DNA from: a virus
Length of the DNA stretch: 32,798 nucleotides
Direction: 5' to 3' (one strand)
Virus record (IMG/VR): IMGVR_UViG_3300030382_000678
Coordinates: 1 to 32,798 of that record
Below the pieces are notes generated by a model. That model saw only the letters and a list, made by a program, of their open reading frames with translations. It searched no databases and had not been told where the DNA came from. This document shows, in pieces, positions 1 through 26,800 of this stretch. The translations under genes and the position numbers were made by a program. Every line of letters begins with the position of its first letter. The stretch's first letter is position 1.

Positions 1-312
1 TTGACACTCTATCGGGTGATGGGGAACATTCCTAGAGCATCAACACACGAAAGATAACAGTCCCTCACTGGCTGTCCATATATGAAGAAACAGATTCATC
101 CCCTATCTAAGATCGATCTTGCTTTTTTACCGAAAAAATCTGAGGGGTTTATCGCTTATTTGGCGGAGAGGCTGCACCCCCCATGGCCTTTCTATATGAA
201 TGAGGCAGGGGGTACCCCACTACTCCACGCAATCTTTGACAATCGGGGGGCGTTCTGTAATGAATTTATGCAGTCAGGGGGCGGGGTCTGACTGTTTCTT
301 TTTAGCCGCCCA

Positions 313-341
313 TTGTCAAAAGACTCTCGAGGGACTATGAT
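313..341 (+). promoter_or_regulatory. Sigma70-type early promoter
   Basis: TTGTCA at 313-318 and TATGAT at 336-341 each match the bacterial consensus at five of six bases and are separated by exactly 17 bases. Transcription would start near 348, giving a leader of about 120 bases before the first confident early gene at 467. Host RNA polymerase reading early genes from the left end, including the phage RNA polymerase gene, is the T7 pattern. The call rests on sequence match only. Confidence 0.6.
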
Positions 342-425
342 AGATATATGGACGGAATCCATCGGGACTGGCAAGTCTTTTACGGGATCGTCTCTCTTCA
401 CTGGTAGCCCCAGGTCGTAAAGAAA

Positions 426-466
426 GAGGAGTCGCACTCCTCGCAGAACCTAGACAACCCACCACC
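426..466 (+). promoter_or_regulatory. Leader hairpin and ACCCACCACC motif before first early gene
   Basis: GAGGA (426-430) pairs with TCCTC (438-442) around a seven-base loop, GTCGCAC. It is followed by ACAACCCACCACC at 454-466, which touches the ATG at 467. There is no Shine-Dalgarno sequence. The layout (short hairpin, then CCCACCAC, then start codon) recurs in expanded form before the next two genes, so this looks like the first member of a family of early-gene leaders. Function is unknown; RNA processing or translation initiation are possibilities. Confidence 0.4.
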
Positions 467-694
467 ATGAACAAGAAGGTATCTTCCACCGTCTTACTTG
501 CACTCGTCTACGAGGCTTATAAGCACGATCCAGAGGGTTTCGTTGATGACCTACGAATCATCGTAGAGAACGAAGAAAGTCTCTTGGATTTTGCCAAGCA
601 AGCTATTGAAATGATCGAGATGGAAGACGACGAAGGAGAGATCGAATACGAGGAGGAACTAAAGAAAGTTCCAGCCTTGTTAGCTAATCGGTAA
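467..694 (+). CDS. Small acidic early protein, function unknown
   Basis: A 75-residue protein that I do not recognise. It is strongly acidic, with about 20 Asp/Glu against 8 Lys/Arg, and has an acidic cluster around residues 50-65. It is the first confident gene after the early promoter, the position occupied in T7 by gene 0.3, whose product Ocr is an acidic DNA mimic that blocks restriction enzymes. Position and charge make an anti-defence or host-takeover role possible, but there is no sequence match that I can see. The start is the ATG directly after the CCCACCACC leader; no ribosome binding site is present. The end of the gene overlaps the start of the stem-loop region at 682-744. Confidence 0.65.
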   Translation: MNKKVSSTVLLALVYEAYKHDPEGFVDDLRIIVENEESLLDFAKQAIEMIEMEDDEGEIEYEEELKKVPALLANR

Positions 695-727
695 GGCCGA
701 GAGGGCGGTTCAATTCCGCCCTTAGCT
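682..727 (+). ncRNA. tRNA T-arm-like stem-loop, copy 1
   Basis: GGGCGG (703-708) pairs with CCGCCC (716-721) around the seven-base loop TTCAATT, which fits the tRNA T-loop pattern TTCRANY. Directly after it, TTAGCT (722-727) is complementary to AGCTAA (682-687), which would stack an acceptor-like stem on the T-arm. The segment TTAGCTAATCGGTAAGGC at 680-697 also resembles a D-arm with its GG. There is no anticodon arm and the space is too short for a full tRNA, so this is tRNA-like rather than a tRNA gene. The stop codon of the preceding gene lies inside it. Confidence 0.45.
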
Positions 728-730
728 CTT

Positions 731-763
731 CCCTCGAAAGAGGGACAACCCACCACAAAGAGG
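731..763 (+). promoter_or_regulatory. GNRA hairpin, CCCACCAC motif and ribosome binding site
   Basis: CCCTC (731-735) and GAGGG (740-744) close a GAAA tetraloop. ACAACCCACCACAAAGAGG follows at 745-763, and its AAAGAGG is a plausible Shine-Dalgarno sequence six bases before the ATG at 769. The same arrangement occurs at 1126-1162. Confidence 0.5.
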
Positions 764-768
764 CCACT

Positions 769-1077
769 ATGTCACGTTTATTCGATGCTTTAGATGAAAG
801 GTTTGATGACCTTGATGAGTGCCGAGACGTTGCCCAATATGGGTGCGATATGGGGGTAACTGGTTTCATCTACTACTGGGAAACACGTAAGTTTTTCTTT
901 GAGCATGAAGATGAAATAGAAGCTTATCTCGACGGCATTTATGGGGATTCAATACTCGAAGACTTAAGCAAAAAGAATAATTCAATTAATCAACTCATCA
1001 ATGCGATGGTTTGGATAGTTGTTCAAGATCACTGCTGTTGTGCAGCTGGTAAAGCTGAAGAACTACAAGCGGTCTAG
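769..1077 (+). CDS. Small acidic phage protein, function unknown
   Basis: A 102-residue acidic protein. Its middle, with GCDMGVTGFIYYWETRKFF near residues 25-43 followed by HEDEIE, resembles a family of short phage proteins that I have seen with a G-x-D-x-G-x-x-GF-x-YY pattern and a following HxxEI. I cannot name a function for that family. The C-terminal part has a hydrophobic stretch (NAMVWIVV) and a run of three cysteines. The start is supported by the AAAGAGG site. It lies in the early region between two T-arm-like stem-loops and is probably expressed straight after infection. Confidence 0.7.
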   Translation: MSRLFDALDERFDDLDECRDVAQYGCDMGVTGFIYYWETRKFFFEHEDEIEAYLDGIYGDSILEDLSKKNNSINQLINAMVWIVVQDHCCCAAGKAEELQAV

Positions 1078-1123
1078 TTAATCCGTAAAAGCGGGGGGCC
1101 AGGTGCAAACCCTGGCCTAGCTA
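1075..1123 (+). ncRNA. tRNA T-arm-like stem-loop, copy 2
   Basis: GGCCAGG (1097-1103) pairs with CCTGGCC (1111-1117) around the seven-base loop TGCAAAC, one base away from the TTCRANY T-loop pattern. TAGCTA (1118-1123) can pair with TAGTTA (1075-1080), again giving an acceptor-like stem stacked on the T-arm. The stop codon of the preceding gene (1075-1077) is part of that stem. Spacing, flanks and downstream hairpin match the copy at 682-727, while the two T-stems differ in sequence but keep full pairing, which argues for a selected structure. No anticodon arm is present. Confidence 0.45.
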
Positions 1124-1125
1124 TT

Positions 1126-1162
1126 CCCTCTTAACTGAGGGACTAAACCCACCACAAAGGAG
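1126..1162 (+). promoter_or_regulatory. Hairpin, CCCACCAC motif and ribosome binding site
   Basis: CCCTC (1126-1130) and GAGGG (1137-1141) close a six-base loop. ACTAAACCCACCACAAAGGAG follows at 1142-1162. AAAGGAG is a strong Shine-Dalgarno sequence seven bases before the ATG at 1170. This is the same arrangement as at 731-763. Confidence 0.5.
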
Positions 1163-1169
1163 TTATCAA

Positions 1170-1418
1170 ATGACACGAAGAACTAACGCTGATTTATTAG
1201 AAGAGAACAGGGCATTGAAGAAAGCACTTGAAGAAAGGGACGCTGAACTAATTAGTTTTGCTACCTATCAAAGAGACTTTCAAAATCGCTGGGCTTTACA
1301 TGCTGATGAGTGGCACAATCTTTATTCGATTGACTGCCCTCAATACTGGGCCAACTTGATTAAATTCGCTGGCCAAGCAAAGCAAGAAGTTCTATCCCTG
1401 ATTCCTATTACCAAATGA
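1170..1418 (+). CDS. Early protein with N-terminal coiled coil, function unknown
   Basis: An 82-residue protein that I do not recognise. Residues 6-28 form a charged leucine-rich helix (ADLLEENRALKKALEERDAE) typical of a short coiled coil, so it may oligomerise. The rest is rich in aromatic residues, including two WxxL/W motifs. The start has a strong AAAGGAG ribosome binding site. Its stop overlaps the start of the following 47-residue frame as ATGA, indicating translational coupling. Confidence 0.65.
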   Translation: MTRRTNADLLEENRALKKALEERDAELISFATYQRDFQNRWALHADEWHNLYSIDCPQYWANLIKFAGQAKQEVLSLIPITK

Positions 1419-1558
1419 ATCGTTTAGTTATTCTCTCAGCCCTCGTCTTATTGACGGGGAGCTGGGCTTTTTTTTCTATCTCTAGTGGAATTAAAAAGTC
1501 ACCACTGGGCAACCAGTTGGAACAAAGACGTTTACTTATTGAGAGGCTAAGCAAATGA
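1415..1558 (+). CDS. Small single-span membrane protein
   Basis: A 47-residue frame with ATGA overlaps at both ends: its ATG overlaps the stop at 1416-1418, and its stop overlaps the ATG at 1555. Residues 4-23 (LVILSALVLLTGSWAFFSIS) form one hydrophobic span, followed by a basic tail (KK, RR, ER). The coupling on both sides and the clean membrane span support a real gene. A small early inner-membrane protein could act on the host envelope or host enzymes, but nothing shows which. It is unlikely to be the main lysis gene given its early position. A terminator-like hairpin lies inside the coding sequence at 1437-1475. Confidence 0.6.
   Translation: MNRLVILSALVLLTGSWAFFSISSGIKKSPLGNQLEQRRLLIERLSK
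1437..1475 (+). terminator. Terminator-like hairpin with eight-T tract
   Basis: CAGCCCTCGTC (1437-1447) pairs with GACGGGG-A-GCTG (1453-1464) around a TTATT loop, giving eleven pairs with one bulged A, followed by GGC and eight T (1468-1475). This has the form of an intrinsic terminator. It sits inside the 47-residue membrane protein frame and upstream of the RNA polymerase gene, so partial termination (attenuation of early transcription) is more likely than a full stop. The T tract may instead simply encode the Phe-Phe of the membrane span. Confidence 0.4.
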
Positions 1559-1803
1559 GCGCAATGAAACACTATGACCACGCACTAGAAAGCAACAAGG
1601 CTTTGTTAGTTGAGTGTTGGTCACGCATGGAGACCAGTCGCAGTGCTGAGACCCGTGAGAAGATGACTAAGATTGTAGAAAGATTGCGTTCAGAGTTGCC
1701 TAAGACTATTGTGGAAGAGTGCAGGTTATCTGCACATGACCTGATAGCAGGTATCAAAGGTAAACGCCAGACCGACTGGGAATTCAACGACTATGAAGAG
1801 TGA
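1555..1803 (+). CDS. Early helical protein, function unknown
   Basis: An 82-residue mostly helical, charged protein that I do not recognise. The start ATG overlaps the stop of the upstream membrane protein frame in an ATGA, so translation is probably coupled. A second in-frame ATG occurs at codon 4. It has no cysteine cluster or known catalytic motif. It belongs to the string of small early genes before the RNA polymerase, where T7-like phages keep host-takeover genes that vary from phage to phage. Confidence 0.65.
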   Translation: MSAMKHYDHALESNKALLVECWSRMETSRSAETREKMTKIVERLRSELPKTIVEECRLSAHDLIAGIKGKRQTDWEFNDYEE

Positions 1804-1966
1804 GGAAAAGCCAAGCCGATACGCACAGGACAGAGAGATCTTCCAATGCTATCGAGCTTGGCACTTATCTCGTTATGGAACAGAACCCAGCTCGCAGCAG
1901 ACTTTGCTCTGTTGTGACTGGGGGATTCACTTAATCAACAACCCACCACCACAAAACAATGAGTAG
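1793..1966 (+). CDS. Possible small early gene, 57 residues
   Basis: This frame begins 11 bases inside the end of the preceding gene and runs 57 codons to TAG at 1964-1966, just past the next ATG at 1959. It fills the otherwise empty space between the two neighbours. The predicted protein has two adjacent cysteines and several aromatic residues. No clear ribosome binding site is visible, and its last part is written through the CCCACCACC motif (as NNPPPQNN), so the leader function of the next gene and this tail compete for the same bases. It could be real or chance. Confidence 0.4.
   Translation: MKSEEKPSRYAQDREIFQCYRAWHLSRYGTEPSSQQTLLCCDWGIHLINNPPPQNNE
1937..1958 (+). promoter_or_regulatory. 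AACCCACCACC start-proximal motif
   Basis: AACAACCCACCACCACAAAACA lies directly before the ATG at 1959. It is the fourth occurrence of the AACCCACCAC motif before an early start codon, here without a stem-loop of the T-arm type and without a Shine-Dalgarno sequence. Confidence 0.4.
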
Positions 1967-2276
1967 TTTCAAAACCTACGATCTTAAGACTGATCCACCT
2001 AAAATTGGACAGGCTAATGATGAGGGCAAAGTATTATTCTGGAGTCGAACTATTGGGTGGCATATAGGTAATTTCCAACTGCCTTGGGATGATGATACCG
2101 CTTGGACTTATGCACCTCAACCACTGCTAGAGAAGGCAAGCCGAGAGGAATTACTTGAAGCTCAATTCAAAAAAGTGTGCGAGGAAAATGGTTGGACTAA
2201 GGAAAAAGAATGCAATGAGTTTATGCTCTTTCATTTGAAAGCTGCATACTTATTGGGTACTAATTCCATTCTCTAA
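1959..2276 (+). CDS. Early protein, function unknown
   Basis: A 105-residue protein that I do not recognise. The N-terminal half is rich in tryptophan and aromatic residues (FWSRTIGWH, LPWDDDTAW) and reads like a small beta-rich domain. The C-terminal half is helical and charged, with EELLEAQFKKVCEENGW. The ATG follows the CCCACCACC motif with no Shine-Dalgarno sequence. It lies between two short overlapping frames in the early region. Confidence 0.65.
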   Translation: MSSFKTYDLKTDPPKIGQANDEGKVLFWSRTIGWHIGNFQLPWDDDTAWTYAPQPLLEKASREELLEAQFKKVCEENGWTKEKECNEFMLFHLKAAYLLGTNSIL

Positions 2277-2282
2277 CTAACA

Positions 2283-2447
2283 ATGAATCCAAACAATCCA
2301 TTGGCAGGGGATCAGTTTATTGATCCCGCTACTGATAGAACTTTCTATTTCACAGGTGAACGATGGGTTGATATCACAAGTAAAGACTCATCCACCTGTG
2401 AGAAGGAAGAAGTACCCATCAAACTAGGACTAACTTCAAATGACTGA
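2283..2447 (+). CDS. Small protein with phage-type GxxW motif, 54 residues
   Basis: A 54-residue frame that fills the gap between the genes at 1959 and 2440 and overlaps the latter by eight bases. The N-terminal sequence (GDQFIDPATDRTFYFTGERW) resembles a short repeat common in marine phage proteins in which an asparagine or glycine turn is followed by an aromatic strand and GxxW. That resemblance and the neat overlap support a real gene. The function is unknown. No strong ribosome binding site is visible, and translation may be coupled to the gene just upstream, whose stop is six bases away. Confidence 0.5.
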   Translation: MNPNNPLAGDQFIDPATDRTFYFTGERWVDITSKDSSTCEKEEVPIKLGLTSND

Positions 2448-2622
2448 AACCACACCCAATCCAAAGCTTCAAGTTGTACTAGCACCCAAGCTATTCAAAA
2501 GGTATGACGACCTCGCCTCTGAAATGGGTATTGATCGAGCTGATCTAGCTCGTCGTGCTCTGACTGAGTGGGCAGAAGTTAATTACTTTGAGCTAATAGG
2601 AAAATGGGAGCAAGTGAATTAG
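2440..2622 (+). CDS. Putative ribbon-helix-helix DNA-binding protein
   Basis: A 60-residue protein. Residues 9-45 read as a short strand (LQVVLAPKLFKRYDDLA) followed by two helices (MGIDRADLARRALTEW), the form of a ribbon-helix-helix (Arc/CopG type) domain. Such proteins bind DNA as dimers and often repress transcription. It lies immediately before the RNA polymerase gene and overlaps its start, so a role in switching early transcription is possible but not shown. The fold assignment is by pattern only. Confidence 0.55.
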   Translation: MTETTPNPKLQVVLAPKLFKRYDDLASEMGIDRADLARRALTEWAEVNYFELIGKWEQVN

Positions 2623-4976
2623 AGCAAAGGGCTCTCGAAAGAGAGATGCTAACGCTGGGTTGTGATCGAGTCCGACTCATCACACATCAACAGCAAAAGA
2701 AAAAGATGGAGTCTCTTTCTAAATATGGAGAGGCTCTGTCTGCCTATGGTGTTGACAAAATAGTTGTCCACCTAAGGGCAGTAAGAAAAAGGATTGAGTC
2801 AGGCAAAGCAGGAGTTAGCTTTGCCCAACTACTTCCCATCACCCACTTGCCGCCACAACAGGTGGCAGCTGCAAGCATTAGAACTGTAATTGATTCCTTG
2901 AGTGCATGTCCGACACTTCACAGTGTCTCGATGGATGTAGCTGACAAGCTATGGATTGAGACCATGTTGGATAGGGCAACAACTCAAGAGCTATTCAGAT
3001 TTAAGAAGGGTCGTAGTCGTCAAGCTCACAAGATGGCTGCCATCAGAAGGATGCAGCAAACAGAGAACTGGACTCCAAGAGAGAAGATTGCATCAGGTTT
3101 ATTCCTGGTCAATCTGATAGCTAGAGAGACTGGACTCATTCAAATAGTCAGAGAAGATCTACCTCACAAAAAGCAGCGTGTCGTCAAGGCAACTGATGAG
3201 TGCATGGCATGGATCAATGACGTCAAAGAAATGCAGGAGTTAATGACTCCTAACTACCTGCCCATGTTGATACCACCTAAGCCTTGGACTTCTCCAAGTA
3301 ACGGGGGGTATTACACAAAGATGCCCTTGAAATTATTCAAGAGTAATAACGAGATCATCCAAGCAAATTGCACAGGTGATGAGCCTTGCTTTAAAGCTGC
3401 AAACATTTTTGGATCTGTTGCTTGGAGAGTACACACATGGATGTTGGAACAGGTAACACATGCCTATGACAACAACCTAGAAATTGGTTGCCTCTTACCT
3501 AGAGATGGCTGGCCTATTCCTCCTTATCCAAAGCACTTGGATGAAGAAGACTTAGGTGTACTCAAGTGGAGAAAGAATGCCAAGATTCTCCATGAAAAGA
3601 ATGATCGGACTAGGAACACACGCATAGCAAACGCAAAGATTCTTTGGGTTGCTCGCAGGTTCGAAGAGGAGGAGGAAATATTCTTTCCAACTTCTATGGA
3701 TTGGAGAGGAAGATTTTATTACCGACCTCCCTATCTAAATCCACAAGGCAATGATGTATCTAGGTCGCTGCTTCTCTTTGCTAAATCAAAACCAATTACT
3801 GAAGAGAGTCATGTTGACTGGCTGAGAATACATGGAGCTAATCTCTATGGTCTCAAGTCAGATTGGCAGACTCGCATTGATTGGGTAAAGCAAAGAGAAC
3901 AGCTCATCATTGGAGCTGGCAATGACCCTTGGTTGAACAGTGAGTTTTGGTTGAGAGCTGATAAACCTTGGAGTTTCTTAGCTTTCTGTCGTGAGTATTG
4001 CAACTTCAGTAGACAGGGATGGGGGTATGAATGTGCCCTGCCCATAATGCTCGACTGCACGTGCTCAGGTATCCAACATTTCGCAGGACTATTGAGATCA
4101 AAACAACTTGGAGCTGAGGTTAATCTCTATCCAAGTGATAGACCTCAAGATATCTATGCGACTGTCATCACCAAAGTCAATGAACATCTAAGAGATTGCA
4201 CTGATGATCGAGCTAGGAAGTGGCTGATGCTGCAACCTGATCGTTCATTAGCCAAGCCATGTGTAATGACCACTCCTTATGCAGCTAGTCGAACAGCGTT
4301 CTATTACTACGCTTATGACTGGGCACAGAAGAGAGCTAAGGACATGTATGGACATGGATCTTGGACAGTTCAGAAGGGATGTATGACAACCATGCACTTC
4401 ATGGCCAACATCCTTCATAAAGAATCAACCAAGGTGATTGCTCCAGCAGTAGAAGCCATGAATTATTTCAAGGCTATAGGTCTACGAGCTGGTAAAGAGA
4501 ACAAGCCGCTGCAATGGAGATCCCCTAGTGGATTACTAGTGCAACAGCAGTATCAGAATCAAAGAGAATCTAGGATTCGTCTTAGATATCTCTCAGATGT
4601 CTCTCTTGATATACGGACAGCAGTCGAAACCCCAGGCCTAGACAAGACTCGGATGGCTAACGCTTTAAGTGCAAACATTTTGCATAGTTTCGACTCAAGT
4701 CACATGGCAATGGCATCTATCCTTGCTAGAAAGAGAGACCCCACCACAAACATAGGAGGTGTGCATGATTGCTTTGCCACCGATCCTGCAAGCATGAGCA
4801 AGCTAAGGGATTCTGTTAGGCAGAGCTTTGCTGATCTATATCAAACAGATTGGCTTACACAAATCAAATCAAAGCTCGAATCACAACTTACAAACACCGA
4901 GGATCTACCACCTGAGCCTCAGCTTGGAGAGTTAGATCCAACTATCACAAAATCATCAACCTATTTCATCACATGA
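2604..4976 (+). CDS. 1: T7-like single-subunit RNA polymerase
   Basis: A 790-residue DNA-directed RNA polymerase of the T7 family, which transcribes the phage middle and late genes. T7 gp1 is 883 residues, so this one is shorter. All catalytic motifs are visible: DWRGR at about 366-370; motif A, D484 in DCTCSGIQHF; motif B with R547, K551 and Y559 in RSLAKPCVMTTPY; motif C, D722 in GGVHDCF. D484 and D722 correspond to the two metal-binding aspartates of T7 (D537 and D812). The start at 2604 overlaps the preceding small gene by 19 bases; a slightly later start cannot be excluded. The stop overlaps the SSB start as ATGA. Its promoter sequence was not recognised in this window. Confidence 0.97.
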   Translation: MGASELEQRALEREMLTLGCDRVRLITHQQQKKKMESLSKYGEALSAYGVDKIVVHLRAVRKRIESGKAGVSFAQLLPITHLPPQQVAAASIRTVIDSLSACPTLHSVSMDVADKLWIETMLDRATTQELFRFKKGRSRQAHKMAAIRRMQQTENWTPREKIASGLFLVNLIARETGLIQIVREDLPHKKQRVVKATDECMAWINDVKEMQELMTPNYLPMLIPPKPWTSPSNGGYYTKMPLKLFKSNNEIIQANCTGDEPCFKAANIFGSVAWRVHTWMLEQVTHAYDNNLEIGCLLPRDGWPIPPYPKHLDEEDLGVLKWRKNAKILHEKNDRTRNTRIANAKILWVARRFEEEEEIFFPTSMDWRGRFYYRPPYLNPQGNDVSRSLLLFAKSKPITEESHVDWLRIHGANLYGLKSDWQTRIDWVKQREQLIIGAGNDPWLNSEFWLRADKPWSFLAFCREYCNFSRQGWGYECALPIMLDCTCSGIQHFAGLLRSKQLGAEVNLYPSDRPQDIYATVITKVNEHLRDCTDDRARKWLMLQPDRSLAKPCVMTTPYAASRTAFYYYAYDWAQKRAKDMYGHGSWTVQKGCMTTMHFMANILHKESTKVIAPAVEAMNYFKAIGLRAGKENKPLQWRSPSGLLVQQQYQNQRESRIRLRYLSDVSLDIRTAVETPGLDKTRMANALSANILHSFDSSHMAMASILARKRDPTTNIGGVHDCFATDPASMSKLRDSVRQSFADLYQTDWLTQIKSKLESQLTNTEDLPPEPQLGELDPTITKSSTYFIT

Positions 4977-5587
4977 TTAAATCAGAAGTACTAAACCTGA
5001 CTACACCTAAATGCGGATTTGAATTTGCCTGGTTAGTAGAGGCAGATACAAAATTTGAAACGCCAGGGGTATGGAAAGTTAATTGCCTGATCCCAGCTGA
5101 TAAGGCAGCCGAAATTGAAGAGCAACTCTCTGGATTACTAGACAGATGGAAGGCTCAACTTAAAGCAGCTGAACCTGATACGAAATTCAAACTTGCCAAC
5201 ATGCCTTGGTCTTATGAAGAGCGTGATGGTAATCCAGTCTTTGTAATCAAGGCCAAGATGAGAGTCGGAGGTCTTAACAAAGACAACAAGCAATGGAGTA
5301 ATAGACCTCCTGTTTTGCAGAACTCTCAAGGTCAACCCATGACCGAGGAAGAGAAGCAAGCAGTAAGCAAGATGGGGCCTGGTACAGAAGGCCAAGTCTT
5401 CTTACGTTGCTCTGGCTACTCAGGAAACTTTGGAGTCGGTATCAAGATTCAACCTGAAGCTGCCATTATTTATAAGCATGTCGAATACTCAAAAAGTTCT
5501 ACGAGCTACGGATTTCAGGTCGAAGAATCCACGAGCGAACCTGCCGCTTGTACGCCAACAAACGTATCGTCGGGGGACGAGTTCTAA
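4973..5587 (+). CDS. 2.5: Single-stranded DNA-binding protein, gp2.5-like
   Basis: A 204-residue protein in the position of T7 gene 2.5. The family coats single-stranded DNA at the fork and contacts the helicase and the polymerase through an acidic C-terminal tail ending in phenylalanine. Here the protein ends in GDEF, which keeps the terminal Phe, but the tail is much less acidic than in T7. That is notable because no phage DNA polymerase is present as a partner. The N-terminal part (LTTPKCGFEFAWLVEADTKF) and the LANMPW segment fit the phage OB-fold SSB family. Its last 110 bases also encode the start of endonuclease I in another frame. Confidence 0.88.
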   Translation: MIKSEVLNLTTPKCGFEFAWLVEADTKFETPGVWKVNCLIPADKAAEIEEQLSGLLDRWKAQLKAAEPDTKFKLANMPWSYEERDGNPVFVIKAKMRVGGLNKDNKQWSNRPPVLQNSQGQPMTEEEKQAVSKMGPGTEGQVFLRCSGYSGNFGVGIKIQPEAAIIYKHVEYSKSSTSYGFQVEESTSEPAACTPTNVSSGDEF

Positions 5588-5951
5588 ATACAGAAGTAAG
5601 TTCGAGGCCCGCTTAGCGGCGGGTCTCACTGATAAGAAAGTCAGCTTCACTTATGAAGATATGACTTTGCCTTATGTAATTGAGGCAAACTATCGACCTG
5701 ACTTCATTCTGGATAACGGAGTAATTATTGAGGCCAAAGGTTTCTTTGCTCCAATGGATAGAAGGAAGATGCTTGCTGTTAAGAAGCTGCATCCTGACTT
5801 AGATATCCGCTTGTGTTTTCAGAATGCAAAAGACAAGATCAGCCGAGCCAAGCGATCCATTACTTATGGCCAATGGGCCACACGACATGGATTCAAATGG
5901 GCTAGCGGTTCTATTCCCCAAGATTGGTATGACTCCCCTCCAAGGAACTAA
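5478..5951 (+). CDS. 3: Endonuclease I (Holliday junction resolvase), gp3-like
   Basis: A 157-residue endonuclease of the T7 gp3 family, which cuts branched DNA and helps degrade host DNA. The catalytic residues are E43 (KFEARL), D75 (YRPDFIL), E85 and K87 (IIEAKG). The D-to-E spacing of ten and the E-x-K match T7 D55/E65/K67. The C-terminal part (DRRKMLAVKKLHPDLDIRLCF) is also T7-like. I chose the ATG at 5478 because nothing later in frame can serve as a start before the conserved core; an ATG at 5430 is possible. Either way it begins deep inside the SSB gene. The N-terminal 35 residues are extra compared with T7. Confidence 0.93.
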   Translation: MSNTQKVLRATDFRSKNPRANLPLVRQQTYRRGTSSKYRSKFEARLAAGLTDKKVSFTYEDMTLPYVIEANYRPDFILDNGVIIEAKGFFAPMDRRKMLAVKKLHPDLDIRLCFQNAKDKISRAKRSITYGQWATRHGFKWASGSIPQDWYDSPPRN

Positions 5952-5982
5952 ACACATCTCGATAAGAGGAGGTAAGCAAACA

Positions 5983-6186
5983 GTGACTGAAGACTACGCA
6001 CTAATTAAAAAGAAAGATCGAGCTGGGTCTGATGGTAAAAACATCATGTGTCCTAAGTGTCAAAAGACATCAAGGATTTATAACCTCGCCTGGTCTGAAC
6101 TCAATTGTCTGCACTGCGGTAAGTGGAGTCCTAAGTATGAAGGCTGGATGATTGACCAGCTCGACACCTGGCAGACTCCAAGATGA
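5983..6186 (+). CDS. Free-standing zinc-ribbon protein
   Basis: A 67-residue protein with CPKC at 23-26 and CLHC at 42-45, a CX2C-X15-CX2C zinc ribbon. The start is taken as GTG at 5983, which has a strong GAGGAGGT ribosome binding site about nine bases upstream. An open frame extends further upstream but overlaps the endonuclease gene and lacks such a site. The cysteine spacing is identical to that of the primase zinc domain encoded 300 bases downstream. Function is unknown; nucleic acid binding is the usual role of such ribbons. Confidence 0.7.
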   Translation: MTEDYALIKKKDRAGSDGKNIMCPKCQKTSRIYNLAWSELNCLHCGKWSPKYEGWMIDQLDTWQTPR

Positions 6187-6311
6187 ATACACAACAACGT
6201 ATCGACGTAGCCAAGCAGCGAATCAAGGAGCTCGAACTCCTAATCCACCACTGGGAGAAAGCCAATGAGTCTAGAAGTACAAGTCCATCTAACTCCAAAC
6301 ACTCTGAGTAG
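6183..6311 (+). CDS. Possible small coiled-coil protein, 42 residues
   Basis: A 42-residue frame whose ATG overlaps the stop of the zinc-ribbon gene as ATGA. Residues 4-28 form a charged amphipathic helix (RIDVAKQRIKELELLIHHW). It fills the space before the gene at 6265 and overlaps it by 47 bases, and the Shine-Dalgarno-like GGGAGA of that gene lies inside it. It may be a real tiny protein or a coupling frame that carries ribosomes to the next start. Confidence 0.45.
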   Translation: MNTQQRIDVAKQRIKELELLIHHWEKANESRSTSPSNSKHSE

Positions 6312-6474
6312 TGGAGGAGATTTCTACACCATCACATGGAGAAGAGACCCTGCTCCTGAAGGAGAAGAGAATGGTAAGTGCCGTGTATGCACAGGCAGAG
6401 ATGACTTTGCTAATGACGGATTACCTGAGGATGTCCTTCAAGTAGTAAGGGAAATACGAGATGGAAAAAAGTAA
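6265..6474 (+). CDS. Small protein of unknown function
   Basis: A 69-residue protein that I do not recognise, with one CRVC cysteine pair near residue 39 and a charged C-terminal helix. The start has GGGAGA about six bases upstream. Its end overlaps the start of the primase-helicase gene by 14 bases, so it is co-translated in the replication cluster. It lies in the region where T7 has the 3.5 lysozyme but shows no resemblance to an amidase. Confidence 0.6.
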   Translation: MSLEVQVHLTPNTLSSGGDFYTITWRRDPAPEGEENGKCRVCTGRDDFANDGLPEDVLQVVREIRDGKK

Positions 6475-8068
6475 ATACATAAGGCATGAGCCTTGCGCTG
6501 TATGTGGAAGCAAGAATAATGTTGCTGTCTTTGATGACGGACATACACATTGCTTTGGATGTGGCGACCAGTACCAACCATCAAAAGAAAAAAAACCAAG
6601 ACCAATGCCAACCTCACCACCAAGACAAGTATCACCACTAATTAAATTCATCAAACCAAGTGCATTAAAAAAGCGTGGCATCACAGAAGAAACAGTTACT
6701 CATTTCCCCTATGGCATCGCTGAATATCACAACCAACCTGTTCAAGTTGCCAACTATCACGATCACTTAGGCAGACCATGTGCTCAACATGTGAGATTTA
6801 AAGATAAGAAATTCATTTGGCTAGGTGATACCAGCAAGATGATGCTCTTCTCCCAACACACATGGAGACAAACAAACCAAGGTAATACTTTCGTTGTTAT
6901 TACTGAAGGAGAGATAGATGCAATGTCTGTCTCTCAAGTACAAGGCAACAAGTTCCCTGTTGTGTCACTGCCAAACGGAGCTCAATCAGTTAAAAAGTAT
7001 TTATCCACTCCTGAAGTACAGAAATGGTTAAACACATTTGTTCGGATTGTCCTTTGTTTGGATACGGATGAGCCTGGTATGGCTGCTGCCGAGAAAGCAC
7101 TTGAAGTCTTACCTCTTGGTAAGGCAGCTATCTGTCGACTACCAAGAAAAGATGCTAATGAAATGCTCCTCGCAGGAGAGGGGGATGCGCTTAGGGACTT
7201 GCTTTGGAAAGCCGTACCTGCAAGACCTGATTCAATCATACAAGCCGCTGACCAATGGGAAGCACTGATAAAACCAGGGGCCTCCTCAGTCTGTGAATAT
7301 CCTTGGCCCAAATTAAATGAGGCGACTAAGGGATATCGCAAGGGTGAGATGGTAACAGTCTGTGCAGGATCAGGGACTGGGAAATCATCCATGTGTCGAG
7401 AGCTGGCCCATCACTTTCTAAGAAATAAAATGAAAGTGGGGTACATCGCACTCGAAGAAAGTATTCAAAGAACACTGCAAGGAATAATCGGAGTTGAGTT
7501 ATCAAGACCTCTACATTTTGAAGACAATCTTTCTGAAGATGCAGAGCTTAAGGATGCCTTTGATCGATTACTTGGAACTGGCCGCCTCTTTTTATACGAC
7601 CACTTTGGATCAATAGATCCTGATCGCTTAGTTGAACAGATTCAATATCTAGCTACAGCTGAGGGAGTTGATGTCGTTATCCTCGATCACTTGACCATAG
7701 TTATTTCTGGCATCAGTGATCTAGATGAGAGGCGAGCACTCGACGTTACCTGTACCAAGCTGCGACAAGTAGTAGAAAGTACAGGCGTTGGTCTCATAGT
7801 TGTCTCACACTTGAGACGACCTGAAGGCAAGGGACACGAAGAAGGAACTCAGGTTTCTCTCTCGCACTTAAGAAGCTCACATTCCGTGGCCCAGTTAAGT
7901 GACTTAGTCCTTGCCGCCGAAAGAAACCAACAGGGAGATCCAGCTGAGAGATCAGAACTCCAACTGCGACTCCTGAAAAATCGCTTTAGTGGGGTCACTG
8001 GCCCTATGGACAAGCTGCTCTACGACCAGCAAACAGGTCGATTAAAACTACCCCTATTTGCACTATGA
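6461..8068 (+). CDS. 4: Primase-helicase, gp4-like
   Basis: A 535-residue bifunctional replication protein (T7 gp4 is 566). The N-terminal zinc domain has C12, C15, C31 and C34. A TOPRIM primase domain follows, with TEGEID near E149 and CLDTDEPG near 199-206. The C-terminal RecA-type helicase has Walker A GSGTGKSS at 303-310, Walker B VVILDHLTIV near 408-417, and the HLRRPEGKGHEEG...LRSS...ERNQQGD series also found in T7. All parts needed for priming and unwinding appear intact. Its TGA overlaps the exonuclease ATG as ATGA; in T7 the DNA polymerase gene lies between these two. Confidence 0.96.
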   Translation: MEKSKYIRHEPCAVCGSKNNVAVFDDGHTHCFGCGDQYQPSKEKKPRPMPTSPPRQVSPLIKFIKPSALKKRGITEETVTHFPYGIAEYHNQPVQVANYHDHLGRPCAQHVRFKDKKFIWLGDTSKMMLFSQHTWRQTNQGNTFVVITEGEIDAMSVSQVQGNKFPVVSLPNGAQSVKKYLSTPEVQKWLNTFVRIVLCLDTDEPGMAAAEKALEVLPLGKAAICRLPRKDANEMLLAGEGDALRDLLWKAVPARPDSIIQAADQWEALIKPGASSVCEYPWPKLNEATKGYRKGEMVTVCAGSGTGKSSMCRELAHHFLRNKMKVGYIALEESIQRTLQGIIGVELSRPLHFEDNLSEDAELKDAFDRLLGTGRLFLYDHFGSIDPDRLVEQIQYLATAEGVDVVILDHLTIVISGISDLDERRALDVTCTKLRQVVESTGVGLIVVSHLRRPEGKGHEEGTQVSLSHLRSSHSVAQLSDLVLAAERNQQGDPAERSELQLRLLKNRFSGVTGPMDKLLYDQQTGRLKLPLFAL

Positions 8069-8796
8069 CTTTATTAATTGATGCTGACTGGCTGATCTAT
8101 TCCTCCTGTTGTGCATGTGAAACAGATATCAAATGGGATGAGAACCTTCACACCCTTCACCTAGATGAACGTGATGCAATGCAACTGATTGAAGATCGTG
8201 TTGCTCAGTATCAGATCATCAGTCCTGGCAAACCAATCATGTGCTTCTCTGATTATCCCACCTTCAGGCATGGAATCTATCAAGACTACAAAGCCAATCG
8301 ACTAGGTAAGCGCAAGCCTCTCGGTCTTAAAAACATAAGAGAAAGAGTTGCCAAAGAATTTCATGCCATCAGCTTCAATGGTTTAGAAGGTGATGATGTT
8401 ATGGGATTACTTGCAACAGGACAGAAGTACCACGATCCAGTAATTGTGTCGCCTGATAAAGACATGAGAGGTGTACCTTGTACTCTCTTGGCTAATGATG
8501 ATCTTGAATTAATTACTCGCAAGAAAGCTGATAGACACTGGATGATTCAGACTTTGAGTGGCGACAAAACAGATAATATAGAAGGATTGGTAGGAGTGGG
8601 GCCAGTTACAGCAGGGAAATTATTAGGTGAAGCTGAAACTCTTGAAGAAATGTGGGCGAAGGTTCATGCTGCTTATGTCAAAAAGAAAAAGACTTATGCT
8701 GATGCCGTCCTAACTGCAAGGTTGACTCGCATCCTTAGGGATGGAGAGTACAACCATGTAACAGGAGAAGTAAAACTTTGGGAGCCAGCAATATGA
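8065..8796 (+). CDS. 6: 5'-3' exonuclease, gp6-like
   Basis: A 243-residue exonuclease of the T7 gp6/FEN group (T7 is 300), which degrades host DNA and removes RNA primers. Visible motifs are LIDADWLIY at the N-terminus, YKANR, LEGDDVMGLLA, VSPDKDM, and the helix-hairpin GDKTDNIEGLVGVGPVTAGK. The C-terminal ILRDGEYN...LWEP is shared with T7 gp6. It is translationally coupled to the primase-helicase and to the next small gene, both by ATGA overlaps. No DNA polymerase fragment lies on either side. Confidence 0.93.
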   Translation: MTLLIDADWLIYSSCCACETDIKWDENLHTLHLDERDAMQLIEDRVAQYQIISPGKPIMCFSDYPTFRHGIYQDYKANRLGKRKPLGLKNIRERVAKEFHAISFNGLEGDDVMGLLATGQKYHDPVIVSPDKDMRGVPCTLLANDDLELITRKKADRHWMIQTLSGDKTDNIEGLVGVGPVTAGKLLGEAETLEEMWAKVHAAYVKKKKTYADAVLTARLTRILRDGEYNHVTGEVKLWEPAI

Positions 8797-8987: not shown

Positions 8988-9290
8988 ATGTGCGGAGGCG
9001 GCGGAGGTGGAGGCGGTTCTGGTAGTGGAGAGAGTCTCGCACTCCAAAGAGAATCCCTCGCATTATCTAAAGAACAATTCGCTGAGACAAAAAGACAATG
9101 GGGTGAATCTTTCTCTTGGCAGCAAAAAAAAGCTGCTGAGCAAAAAGCAGCTGCTGTAGCTAGACCAGGGAAAGGCCCAATAAGAACTACCGACTATGCA
9201 GCCTCTGCTTTAGGGGACAGATCAGCCTTAGGCTTTGGAAAAGATAGACTGACGAGAGGCGTAACAGGGAAGGGCCTCGCAATTGTTTAA
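8988..9290 (+). CDS. 7.3: gp7.3-like tail assembly protein (putative)
   Basis: A 100-residue protein that starts MCG followed by a run of glycines, then a Gln/Glu/Lys-rich helical part, and ends in a basic glycine-rich tail (DRLTRGVTGKGLAIV). T7 gp7.3 is 99 residues, lies directly before the portal, and has a similar basic tail ending in GGGINI. Position, length and tail support the same virion/tail-assembly role. The sequence similarity is weak, so the name is tentative. An N-terminal cysteine after Met occurs in many T7-like phages at this position. Confidence 0.55.
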   Translation: MCGGGGGGGGSGSGESLALQRESLALSKEQFAETKRQWGESFSWQQKKAAEQKAAAVARPGKGPIRTTDYAASALGDRSALGFGKDRLTRGVTGKGLAIV

Positions 9291-20800: not shown

Positions 20801-23800
20801 ATGGGTTACACACAGGTTATTGATCCTGTATCAGGAGCAGCCACATATGAGTGGGAAGACAGAGACGAAACTCTTTCAGAAGAAACACGTAGAAAAACAG
20901 CAGAACGTCAAACCAATACTGAACCTGTTGATTTAAAAGCAGCAGCAATAGGTACAGCAAAAGCTGTTCCTCGCATGTTTGTTAATGCAGGGATTAATGC
21001 TGTTCAAGAAGGTAGCGATTTAATTAGAGATGTTGGTGGACATTTCGGAATTCTTGAAGGAACTACAAATGAAGAACACGATAAGCCAATACTCGGACTA
21101 GGTGACTGGAAGCCAGAACCACTAGAAAGTAGTGGAATGGCTGAAGATATAGGAACAGGAATACTTCAGTTCGGACTGGAATGGGTTCTACTTACAAAAG
21201 CATTACGCCTTGCTAACTGGGGATTAAAAGCAACTCCTTTAGCTAGACCCCTTGCATATGCAGGAGCTAAGTCGAAACAAATAAAAGGAGGCATCCTTAA
21301 AACAGTAGGCAAATCTCCTGTTGCTCCAAGAACTTTACAAGACCTTACTAAGTTTGGAATCAAGACAGCAACAGCAACAAGTCCGAAAGCAGCAATAATA
21401 GATTTCGCAGGATTCGATCAATACGAAGGTCGTCTTTATGACTTAGCTGCCAATAGCGACACTTGGTTTAATAACGTTAAACATATTCCTATCCTTAATC
21501 AGCTTGCTACTAATCCAGAAGATGAAGGATTAAAAGGCCGCTTTAAGAATGCACTAGAAGGAGCTTTTATTGACCTAGGAATTGGTTCAGTTATATCTGC
21601 AAGATCAGCTTCTAAGGTAATCGATCAAAGAATTCAATTAGCAGAACTGCAAAAACTAGTAAAAGGTACTCCTGCTTACAATAGGCAACTTGAAAAGGTA
21701 ATAGCAGCAGGTGCAGAATTAGAGAAAGTCCCTGAAATTAAAACTGCTTTAAGAGATAAAAGAGTATTAGACAGACAGAACAAACAGATAACACAAACAG
21801 ATAGAAGAAAATTCGACCAAGCCTTTGCACATAAATCTCCAGAATGGAGAGAAGCTGCTTGGAAGAAAACAAGAGAATCACTAGACAGACCAGTTAAAAG
21901 AGTTGACTTCATTAAAGAAAGGAAAGTCAAAGTAGAGGGTGATCTTCAATCAATCAGACAACAAATAGATGAACTAGGCCCAGAGCCACAAAGACCAGCT
22001 AAAGGCCAAACTAGAACTCCAGATGGGAAATGGACTCCTGCTTATAGAAAATGGGATAAATGGAATAGAAGGAATAAATCATTACAAGCTCGACAGACAG
22101 AATTAACAACACTTGAACCAAGCAAACCTCTTCCTCCAAGTCTCGAAGGAGATTATCGTATCGAGTCAATGGATCAATTTGAGGTCAAGGATACAGGTGA
22201 AATGCGTGTTGATGATACTCAATGGTATGACCCTGAAGGTAAACCTATTGCAGCAGCAGATGCTTCTGATGAAGACTTATATAGAAATGCTTTTATGCAA
22301 AGAGCTAAAGATATTGCTGATGGAATTGAATCAGGTGATCTTCCTTATTTCTATGGCAAGGACGGGAAAACAGATGAAACAATTGCAGCACAAGTAATAG
22401 AAGGTCGATCTATTAGTCAGATTATTGAGAAGTTAAAAACAAATATTCCTAAACCATTTGTACCTATTGGGGAAGCAAAAGGTATTTCTCTATCTAATTA
22501 TAGAGGTGCAGAGAAAATCATTAAACGCCTTAAAGATCAGGTAGGTAAACAAGGCTTTACACGTGGAGAAGTTGAAGCAGCTGAAGACTTTATAGATACT
22601 ATTGGTCGTCATATGTTCGATGATGTTGCCTTTAGTTTTAACAGCTCTATTGGATCACCTGGCCAATTTAGTTTCAATAGAAAATTAGTAGAACTTAGAA
22701 AGAAAGTAATCGATACTGGAGATTTTCAAGAGTCATTAGTACATGAGTTATTGCATAGTTTATCGAGATATTTACCTGCTTCAGACTTAAAAAGATACCG
22801 TAGAGAATGGAAAAATCAGAGAGCAAAATATGAAAGAAGCATGAAGAAGAAGTTTAAATTCTGGGAGGAAGATGGGACACCTTCAGACATGAGGAAGATG
22901 AAGAAAATGATGCAAGACGCTCAAACAAGAGCTAATGCAGAGGCAAAAGCAACAGGCGATATCTCAGATAAAACGATGAAAGAAGTAAATGATATAGCTA
23001 ATCATTCTCTTGCTTATGTAGAATTTACACAATTCCTGTCTGGGAAAGGATATACAAAGCAAAACTATAGGTTTAAAGAACTAGATGAATATTTTGCAGA
23101 GATGCTAACAGATCATTTTATGCTTGATTATACGCCAGTTGATTTTGCACCGAAAGGAACATTTAGAAGACTTGTTCAAGAAATAGGAATCTTCTTTAAA
23201 GAACTATGGATTGAGATTCATGCAAGAATAGGCCCACATAATACTGAAAAAATATTCAATGATTATTTAAAAGGAAGAAATAATAAGCAGCTTAGAAAGT
23301 ATTCACTTGAAACATATTTCGACCCAGATCAGGCTGAAAGAGTGAGGGAAGGATTCTTAGGCATCGGTATAGAAATTAATGAAAAAGCTCAAGACTTTGA
23401 TGTTATTCATGGTTCAGTTTTTGATGAAGACTTTATAAAAAGAAGAGTTGAATTTGAACCTGACGAGATGGCAGATCTTTCTGACTTCATCGAGAGTTTT
23501 GAAGATCCAACTTATGACAAACTTCTGAGAAAGATTAATGATTATCTATATCCAGAGAAAGGAGATAAAGCAGCTCCTTATCCTATTAATGAAAAGGATG
23601 GAGAACGGATAGATGATCTCTTGGACATTCTTCAAGAAGAAGATCCAAAAGCCTATCAAGAATGGGAATGGATGCGTGATGAACCTGTTGAAACAACAGC
23701 TGAACGAAAGACAAGAACAGATGCAGAAGATGAAGCTCGCTTCCAAGAGGAGTCAAGGCTCTATGACGAGCAACAAGGAAGAACAGAAGCAGGAGATGAT

Positions 23801-26800
23801 CCTCGTGGATTCTATGAAAACGAAGCAAGAATCTACGACTCAGAAATGGCTGGTCGATCAGAAGAACCTGCTGGAGGCAGGATTCCAAGAGAAGAAGTAG
23901 AGCAAGTTGGAGAAGAAATTACTGAGAAAATTAAAAGTGGAGATGCTGAACTACTTGATACCCCTCAACTGTGGCAAGACGTAACGACTCTTAGATCACC
24001 AAAAGGAAGAGAGTATTACCCAGGTTCAAGTGAAGCAGGAGGAGACTTTGAACAGATCCTTGATTCTGTAAGCCGTCGCTTTGAAGAATTCTGGACACAA
24101 GTTCAAGGGCCGAGGTCACTTGAGACAGGGATGCCTTCCATAAGTACAAATAGACTTGCACAAGAACTAGGTGCAATATTCAGAGAAGAAGGTATAAATT
24201 TAGATGCGATTTTATATAATCCAAAACTTGTAGAAGCTACAGAATTCCTTTCTAGAAATGTTGAAAATATTACCAATCTATTAGAGATACGGTTTGGTTT
24301 GAATTTTGCTGGAGAAGAAACTGCTAAATGGGCAAAATTAGCAGATAGGGCAACTGATGATCCTTCTATAAATAAAGCAGAAGCTATAACAAATATGCTT
24401 AGACATTTAGAAACAACCTTACAATTCTCTAGGGTTTATCAAACTTGGACTAGAGCAGCAGGTGGTTTGCTGCAATCAGCTCAAGCTGAAATACTTACTG
24501 AAGGAATAACAGAAACGACTAAGAGAACAAATCTTAATTTCGATAAGATCACAGCAATAAGTGAAGCATCAAAAGTACCAGCTCAAACAGTCGTTTCTAA
24601 TCTTCCTGATGAAGTCTTAAATGGAATCAGGACAGGAGAATGGACTCCTGAAGCAGAAGGATTTATGGATCAATTGATATTCCTTTCAAGAGATACAAAT
24701 ACAAAGCATGGAATGAAAACACTTCAAGATTTACTTGGAGCTAATCAGCAAATAAGTAGCATGAGAAATGCTCCTAAGATTTCCAGTTATGAGAGATGGG
24801 GTAAAGGAACAGCTAATTACTACGTTAATAATCTTCTTTCTGCTGTTGATACATGGGGAGTTCAGCTCTCAGGTTTAGCAAAAGCAGTTAGCACAGAACC
24901 ATTAAGCATGGGTGTTAATGCATTAGCTCATCGTGACTTCCAGAATGCAAGATTGATGATGTTGCAATACGACTATTTAAGGAGAACTTTCTATGGTGCT
25001 CTTAAATTAGGAGCAAAAGCATTTGAGCTAGGTCAATCTTTATATGATCCCAAAATGCGAACAGCTGCTTGGGCATCAGATTTAGCTCAAGAAACGAATA
25101 TCAATAAAGGTTATGCAAGGGATCGTGCTTTCCAATTGGAAGATCCTCATCCATCTTTCAACTTAAATACAAATCCATTCACAAGAGAAGCAAAAGGAAA
25201 TCCTGGTCTTAATGTTGCAAATGTCCTATGGAGATTGGGTACTTGGAATATTAGAGGCCAATTAGCAATAGATACTTTTACAAGATCTCTCGCTGGTAAT
25301 TCTCTTGCATGGGTAACTGGAGTAGATCAAGGATTAAATAAAGGCAAGCGATTAGGACTAAAAGGAATTGAGTTAGAAAATTATGCAAGAAAATACGCTC
25401 AAGGAAGAATTGAGTTCTATACATTCGACGCTGTTGTTAATGGAGAAACAATTGCAGATGCACTTATGAAAGATGAAGCAGCAGTACAAATAGGACGGAT
25501 ACTTACCTTTACGGATCAGACCAGAGCAAGAATGCCACAAAGGCATAGTGGATATGCAGAAGAGATCGCAAGACAAAGAGGAATAACAGATGAAAAAGAA
25601 GTAGCAGAATTCGTAAAACGTTATATGAATGGTGAATTAGAAGGTGCTCAAAAAATATATAACGACTTCATGCGAGGTAATACTGGGAAAAGTGCAAAAG
25701 ATCAGAAAGGACTCCCAGATCCAGGAGAAGTTACTCCTGTAATGACTTCTGCTTGGTCTCAAATACCGATGAGATGGGGAAGATTGCAAGCTGGTCAGCA
25801 TGGATTTTGGGCCAGCTTTATTCAACCCTTTAACAGATCTCCTGGTGATATGACAAAGCAATGGATCAGAATGACTCCACTTAACTGGACTGTTGATACC
25901 TTCTATAGAGATCTCTTTAATGAAAACGTTCATCTAAGGAATAGATGGAAAACTGAATTAGCAACAGGAACAACAGCAGCAGGACTCTTTGCCATGACTG
26001 CTTTGCATGATGACGACTTCCCGATTGAGTTCACAGGATATGGGCCAAACAGTCCAGACATGAGAAAAGAATGGACAGATCAGGAAAGGCCTCCTCTCTC
26101 TTGGAGATCGAGAGGCCGAGACAAAGATGGAAATCCTTCTTATGGAGAATGGCATTCTTTCAGAGGCTATGAGCCTGCTGCAACTTTCATTGGAGGATTA
26201 GCTGATTACAAGATGCTCTATGCAGAGCTCTCTGAAAAAGACAGAGATGATCTTGTTGCAGGATTCTCTATGTCAATAACTGCACAAGTAATATCAGGTA
26301 GATTTAATGCTACTTATTACAAAGGAATAGTAGACTTTATTGATGCAATTGGATTGTTCCGACAGAATCTCCCAGGAAGAAGAGAATTAGAACCATCAGA
26401 AAGAACAAAACTAGCTAGATATGTTCAAAGATTCCTTGCTAACTTCATTCCTGAATCAGGTCGAATGAGAGAAGTAAGTAGAGCAATGGATCCGTATAAG
26501 AGAGAAATCTCTTCAGGAGTTAGACCAAAAGAAGCTTTTGATGAAGCAGATAAAGACCTCGTTAAAATGCGAGATCATTTAGGTCGTACTGTATATCTTA
26601 AGAAGAGAGATACAGAGGAAGGAAGTACTTTTGATCAAATGATAGATTGGATTAGTGGTTTTGCTAGGCAACAAATAGATGAAATAAAGAATACAATTCC
26701 AGGTTTCTCTGAAACATTACCTGAAAGAATAAACTGGATCACTGGACTGCCTATAAGGAATAAAGGCTTTTTAGGTAGTGATCAATTACCTTTAGATGAT

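Follow-up and report, generated by a model that had tools for sequence, protein, structure and literature searches.

Missing DNA polymerase gene and an altered helicase C-terminal tail in an uncultured cyanopodovirus record of the MPP-C lineage

The window analyzed here is the whole of IMG/VR record IMGVR_UViG_3300030382_000678, a linear metagenomic assembly of 32,798 bp in which about 5 kb of the genome, including the terminase, is missing. A megablast search with the window found no match among phage records; therefore, we used protein searches instead. All sizeable window proteins were scanned with Pfam, and the replication and internal virion proteins were scanned with PHROGs. The plus strand carries a T7-like single-subunit RNA polymerase (2604–4976; Pfam RNA_pol, PHROG 414), a gp2.5-like single-stranded DNA-binding protein (SSB) with an acidic tail ending in SSGDEF (4973–5587; PHROG 112, tail comparison), a gp3-like endonuclease I (5430–5951, start uncertain; Pfam Phage_endo_I), a T7-type, gp4-like primase-helicase of 535 aa with a TGA stop (6461–8068; PHROG 239 with an E-value of 6e-163, Pfam DnaB_C, Helic-prim_T7_N and Toprim; 57% identity to the helicase of the cultured phage P-SCSP1a) and a gp6-like 5'-3' exonuclease of 243 aa with an ATG start (8065–8796; Pfam 5_3_exonuc_N and 5_3_exonuc, PHROG 107; 67% identity to P-SCSP1a). 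These matches agree with the initial annotation, which had listed the SSB, primase-helicase, endonuclease and exonuclease as present. On the virion side, portal, scaffold, capsid, tail tube, nozzle, internal virion proteins and tail fibre were matched. A 2214-aa protein (20801–27445) gave nothing above the Pfam cut-off, and its PHROG likeness to an internal virion protein was confined to region 1720–1906. A small ORF between exonuclease and portal (8988–9290), which starts MCGGGGGGGGSGSG, had no family match.

The ORFs confirmed that the helicase stop and the exonuclease start share the four bases ATGA (plus strand, 8065–8068). Such an overlap alone is an ordinary sign of translational coupling. 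The helicase ends in the tail KLPLFAL (plus strand, 8045–8065), which in the tail comparison replaces the acidic tail ending in DF of polymerase-bearing relatives. The overlap lies at the slot where a family A DNA polymerase gene would be expected: as first proposed, this gene sits between helicase and exonuclease in the annotations of T7, Syn5 and P-SSP7, and also of HTVC031P and CRP-125. In polymerase-bearing relatives (L075, L077, L079 and these annotated phages), the gap between the two genes is about 2.4–2.9 kb and holds the polymerase and small genes. T7 and the MPP-A/MPP-B cyanopodoviruses (Syn5, P-SSP7) share with the window the RNA polymerase, gp2.5, gp3, gp4, gp6 and virion genes; unlike the window, T7, Syn5 and P-SSP7 encode a family A polymerase, placed between gp4 and gp6, as well as an acidic helicase tail ending in DF.

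The initial annotation had found no polymerase A motifs in any window protein, and the Pfam and PHROG scans likewise gave no DNA polymerase. Six-frame profile searches over the whole public record of 32,798 bp were empty for PF00476 (family A), PF00136 (family B) and PF07733 (family C). PF00476 was also not found in 28 related IMG/VR records (24–60 kb), in two further clade records (L257 and L258) or in the complete genomes of cultured P-SCSP1a and P-SCSP2. As a positive control, the PF00476 search matched all 16 polymerase-bearing records to which it was applied, T7, Syn5 and P-SSP7 among them, indicating that it is sensitive enough. A PF03175 search gave no match in its controls either and is thus uninformative on absence; the same holds for searching the window with the T7 gp5 protein, which had no positive control. 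Judged by the family profiles, the DNA polymerase gene is absent from the window and across the clade.

Two explanations had been offered at the outset, namely a polymerase encoded outside the window or dependence on a host polymerase. The former does not hold as worded, since the window is already the whole record and only DNA missing from the incomplete assembly could count. A sister record of 41,243 bp (G002, examined in the pieces L005, L088 and L327) has a helicase 95% identical to that of the window and carries the terminase genes missing from it; profile searches for families A, B and C found no DNA polymerase in this record. Therefore, a polymerase elsewhere in the genome is disfavored, and host-polymerase dependence stands by exclusion.

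The window is a metagenomic assembly, and an assembly error that deleted the polymerase gene at the junction had been considered from the start. The chance of this is negligible, because the junction recurs in dozens of independent contigs and in cultured isolates; the complete P-SCSP1a genome has the identical ATGA overlap at 6168–6171. GU943031, an earlier record of an uncultured Mediterranean phage (MedDCM-OCT-S08-C159, Jalkavirus), resembles the window in having a four-base helicase-exonuclease overlap with no polymerase between, but it is a 10-kb fragment and lies nearer P-SCSP2 on the helicase tree. In some relatives, genes of 0.2–0.9 kb occupy the slot. We rejected these as polymerase remnants: the scanned ones were a DNA methyltransferase (L011, 7722–8309), a Mom-like DNA modification protein (L030, 2153–2851) and ThyX (L153, 4880–5650), and none was a polymerase. 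An ORF in the slot of L125 (2643–3230) reads nearly like the L011 methyltransferase, and short Cys-rich, zinc-ribbon-like slot ORFs were recognized by eye in L153, L158 and L257. The ThyX gene in L153 indicates that some polymerase-less relatives do carry metabolic genes.

A marine cyanopodovirus lineage without DNA polymerase, put forward in the initial annotation, does exist as MPP-C (Cai et al. 2022, PMC9860041), and the window nests inside it. In a tree of seven concatenated conserved proteins, the window was sister to P-SCSP1a with P-SCSP2 next outside (support 100/100), and the three together were sister to MPP-A, MPP-B and P-RSP2. In a helicase tree of 123 rows with the tails removed, all 26 polymerase-less rows formed one clade at full support, opposite the 97 polymerase-bearing rows; on this tree the polymerase-less rows are one lineage. 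The gene order, in which the exonuclease directly follows the helicase with the same ATGA as in P-SCSP1a, also matches that of polymerase-lacking cyanopodoviruses. These comparisons support the window as a new and uncultured member of MPP-C, and as it is nested in a published lineage, the basic finding of polymerase loss is already known.

MPP-C phages have been described as lacking the polymerase and auxiliary metabolic genes and as having small genomes of 37.3–37.9 kb; they infect Prochlorococcus with a long latent period, their cultured isolates grow without a DNA polymerase of their own, and about 44% of the cyanopodovirus reads from the surface ocean belong to them (PMC9860041). Against this size range, the window record has 32.8 kb without the terminase, and its sister G002 has 41.2 kb. 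Pfam scans of the window proteins found none of psbA, hli, mazG, rnr, talC and thyX, with about 5 kb of the genome missing. The window and the MPP-C isolates P-SCSP1a-u (OM416763–OM416779) and P-SCSP2 (OM416780) share the lack of a DNA polymerase, a T7-like gene order, the absence of these six auxiliary metabolic genes and a non-acidic helicase tail, with helicases 54–57% and capsids 51–77% identical. Unlike the isolates, the window has its own tail KLPLFAL and its own tail-fibre region, and it is uncultured and known from sequence alone. The present findings support the published warning that surveys based on polymerase miss such phages.

A phage family A polymerase and an acidic, F-ending helicase C-terminus are two marks of the T7-type replisome; the window has neither, and its helicase ends in KLPLFAL. 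In T7, the acidic C-terminal tail of gp4 binds basic patches on the gp5 polymerase (PMC12593628, PMC5997990). We compared the last 15 helicase residues in 144 polymerase-bearing loci (128 distinct tails) and 117 polymerase-less loci (45 distinct tails), some loci sharing a contig. Mean net charge was -3.66 in the distinct polymerase-plus tails and +0.20 in the polymerase-minus tails. Among the former, 110 of 128 ended in F and 80 of 128 in [DE]F, an ending that occurred in 0 of the 45 polymerase-minus tails. Conversely, [FYLM]F within the last six residues was present in 40/45 polymerase-minus tails and in 1/128 polymerase-plus tails. Tails within the clade vary, VVPMETYFGN being one example; recurring polymerase-minus forms were KLPLFAL, found in the window and its close sisters, [VLI]P[ML]xx[YF]F, STPLFN, VQQTTFFQ and TTSISSFFQ. 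The acidic DF ending is likewise missing from the tails of P-SCSP1a (MVAASDFFGEKL) and P-SCSP2 (IVYENVFGD). As a control, SSB tails ended in F in 96/99 polymerase-plus and 46/48 polymerase-minus cases and were acidic in both groups, indicating that the change is specific to the helicase. By this comparison, the helicase tail is neutral and hydrophobic/aromatic clade-wide, whereas it is acidic and mostly F-ending in polymerase-bearing relatives. The change falls on one branch of the helicase tree, where one change suffices; its link with polymerase loss thus rests on a single event and is statistically untestable within the clade. Cai et al. make no mention of the helicase C-terminus, a clamp or acidic residues (PMC9860041), and we found no report of the tail switch in the literature searched, so it appears to be new.

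We assessed constraint on the new tail by pN/pS, choosing pairs by helicase core identity only, since grouping by tail pattern would be circular. In polymerase-minus tails, pN/pS was 0.22 at 80–90% and 0.21 at 90–100% core identity, compared with 0.51 and 0.37 in polymerase-plus tails; these values come from tails of 5–11 codons in equal-length, non-independent pairs, with the last codon, which overlaps the exonuclease start, left out. KLPLFAL was kept in helicases down to 88% identity, except for one K-to-R change. These codon comparisons show purifying selection on the new tail within subclades. This bears on the possibility that the tail only decayed once its partner was lost and gained no new one. 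Tail length and sequence do differ between subclades, and at lower core identity pN/pS of polymerase-less tails rises to 0.4–0.9, as decay would predict. Within subclades, however, synonymous sites change while tail residues stay (0.21–0.22), and hydrophobic/aromatic residues recur in 40 of the 45 distinct polymerase-minus tails. The constraint at the protein level counts against simple decay, which we consider unlikely; the divergence between subclades suggests that they may dock differently.

For MPP-C replication, Cai et al. put forward host Pol I, host Pol III or a cryptic polymerase (PMC9860041). That host Pol I, the cellular family A enzyme, simply substitutes for the lost polymerase was their first suggestion (PMC9860041), and Pol I and T7 gp5 do belong to the same family. 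However, the T7-type link consists of the acidic tail held on the gp5 basic patches, and exactly that tail is gone in the polymerase-less helicases, which makes a T7-like contact with host Pol I less likely. Moreover, Pol I is not known to have the thioredoxin-binding domain, which carries one of the gp5 basic patches. We therefore regard plain substitution by Pol I as improbable. Far less probable still is a phage DNA polymerase too divergent for the profiles. Cai et al. raised a cryptic polymerase as a possibility (PMC9860041), and some of the small early ORFs, like the 2214-aa protein, match few families or none; however, the large unassigned proteins occupy virion-protein positions, the 2214-aa one matches a PHROG internal virion protein, and the other early ORFs, at no more than about 120 aa, fall short of the size that a replicative polymerase needs. 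The loss of the polymerase-binding tail from the helicase also argues against a hidden phage enzyme.

The reading we consider probable is that the window belongs to MPP-C, that the family A DNA polymerase gene was lost in an ancestor, so that the genes for helicase and exonuclease came to overlap head to tail, that a host polymerase copies the phage DNA, and that the helicase tail docks on the host replisome. The phage helicase-primase would open and prime the fork, the phage SSB would coat it, and a host polymerase would, by exclusion, make the DNA, with exonuclease and endonuclease still supplied by the phage. Released from the phage polymerase, the tail would dock on a host replisome component, which may be the clamp, the clamp loader or the polymerase. 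The likeliest partner would be on the Pol III side, either the beta clamp or the DnaX/tau clamp loader, as the SPP1 helicase acts via DnaX. We propose, more tentatively and at somewhat less than even confidence, that the former polymerase-docking tail became a short linear motif by which the Pol III machinery of the host, through its clamp or clamp loader, is drawn into a hybrid replisome. If true, a self-sufficient T7 replisome has been turned into a hybrid of phage helicase and host polymerase. The tail switch offers a concrete handle on how MPP-C DNA is copied, as it involves only 5–11 residues, conserved within subclades, and a short list of host proteins.

For docking on the clamp, the bacterial beta-clamp ligand motif is QL[S/D]LF (PMC9690074). 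In eleven cyanobacterial genomes, none of them from marine picocyanobacteria, so that the motif of the likely host may differ, the clamp-type motif of DnaE was Q-x-[NST]-[LI]-F in nearly all (e.g., QGNLF, QVTLF and QGSIF; one had QGNLL). The window's KLPLF has the LF in common with it but K instead of Q. A beta-clamp ligand is a pentapeptide with a leading Q at an exposed terminus; KLPLF does not fit this description, and most clade tails fit worse. Since the Q is missing, we rejected the claim that the tail is an established clamp motif. Most clade tails lack the Q and many lack the LF; therefore, a candidate clamp docking site in the window tail is only suggested. Contact with the clamp loader has a precedent, by analogy, in Bacillus phage SPP1, whose helicase gp40 binds two host proteins, DnaG and DnaX, and recruits the host replisome (PMC6316719). 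SPP1 (gp40 with host DnaG, DnaX and PolC) resembles the window in having no phage polymerase and a helicase that may serve as host-replisome hub. Unlike the window helicase, gp40 is a DnaB-type protein of a different family that works with an origin binder, a loader and host primase, whereas helicase and primase of the window are fused in one T7-type protein.

Several minor observations concern the rest of the record. ARAGORN called a 95-nt tRNA-Trp (CCA) at 634–728, overlapping ORF 467–694, with a folding z-score of -3.7; the Rfam tRNA model did not reach threshold on this interval. The call is kept in the sister record G001 (99% over 86 bases) and was not seen in P-SCSP1a or P-SCSP2, nor was there a good match among 386 cyanobacterial genomes; a tRNA-derived attachment site at 634–728 is possible but unsupported. 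In comparison with window positions 1–8796, G002 (piece L005) has the terminase and early genes through the exonuclease inverted relative to the late genes, and the terminase lies on the minus strand in P-SCSP1a and on the plus strand in P-SCSP2. Either the genome arms are truly inverted in parts of the clade, or assembly produced the inverted block. Finally, the RNA polymerase of the window (2604–4976) shares 64% identity with its P-SCSP1a counterpart and only 25% with that of P-SCSP2, while neighboring genes are far less divergent, which suggests that the RNA polymerase was replaced within MPP-C.
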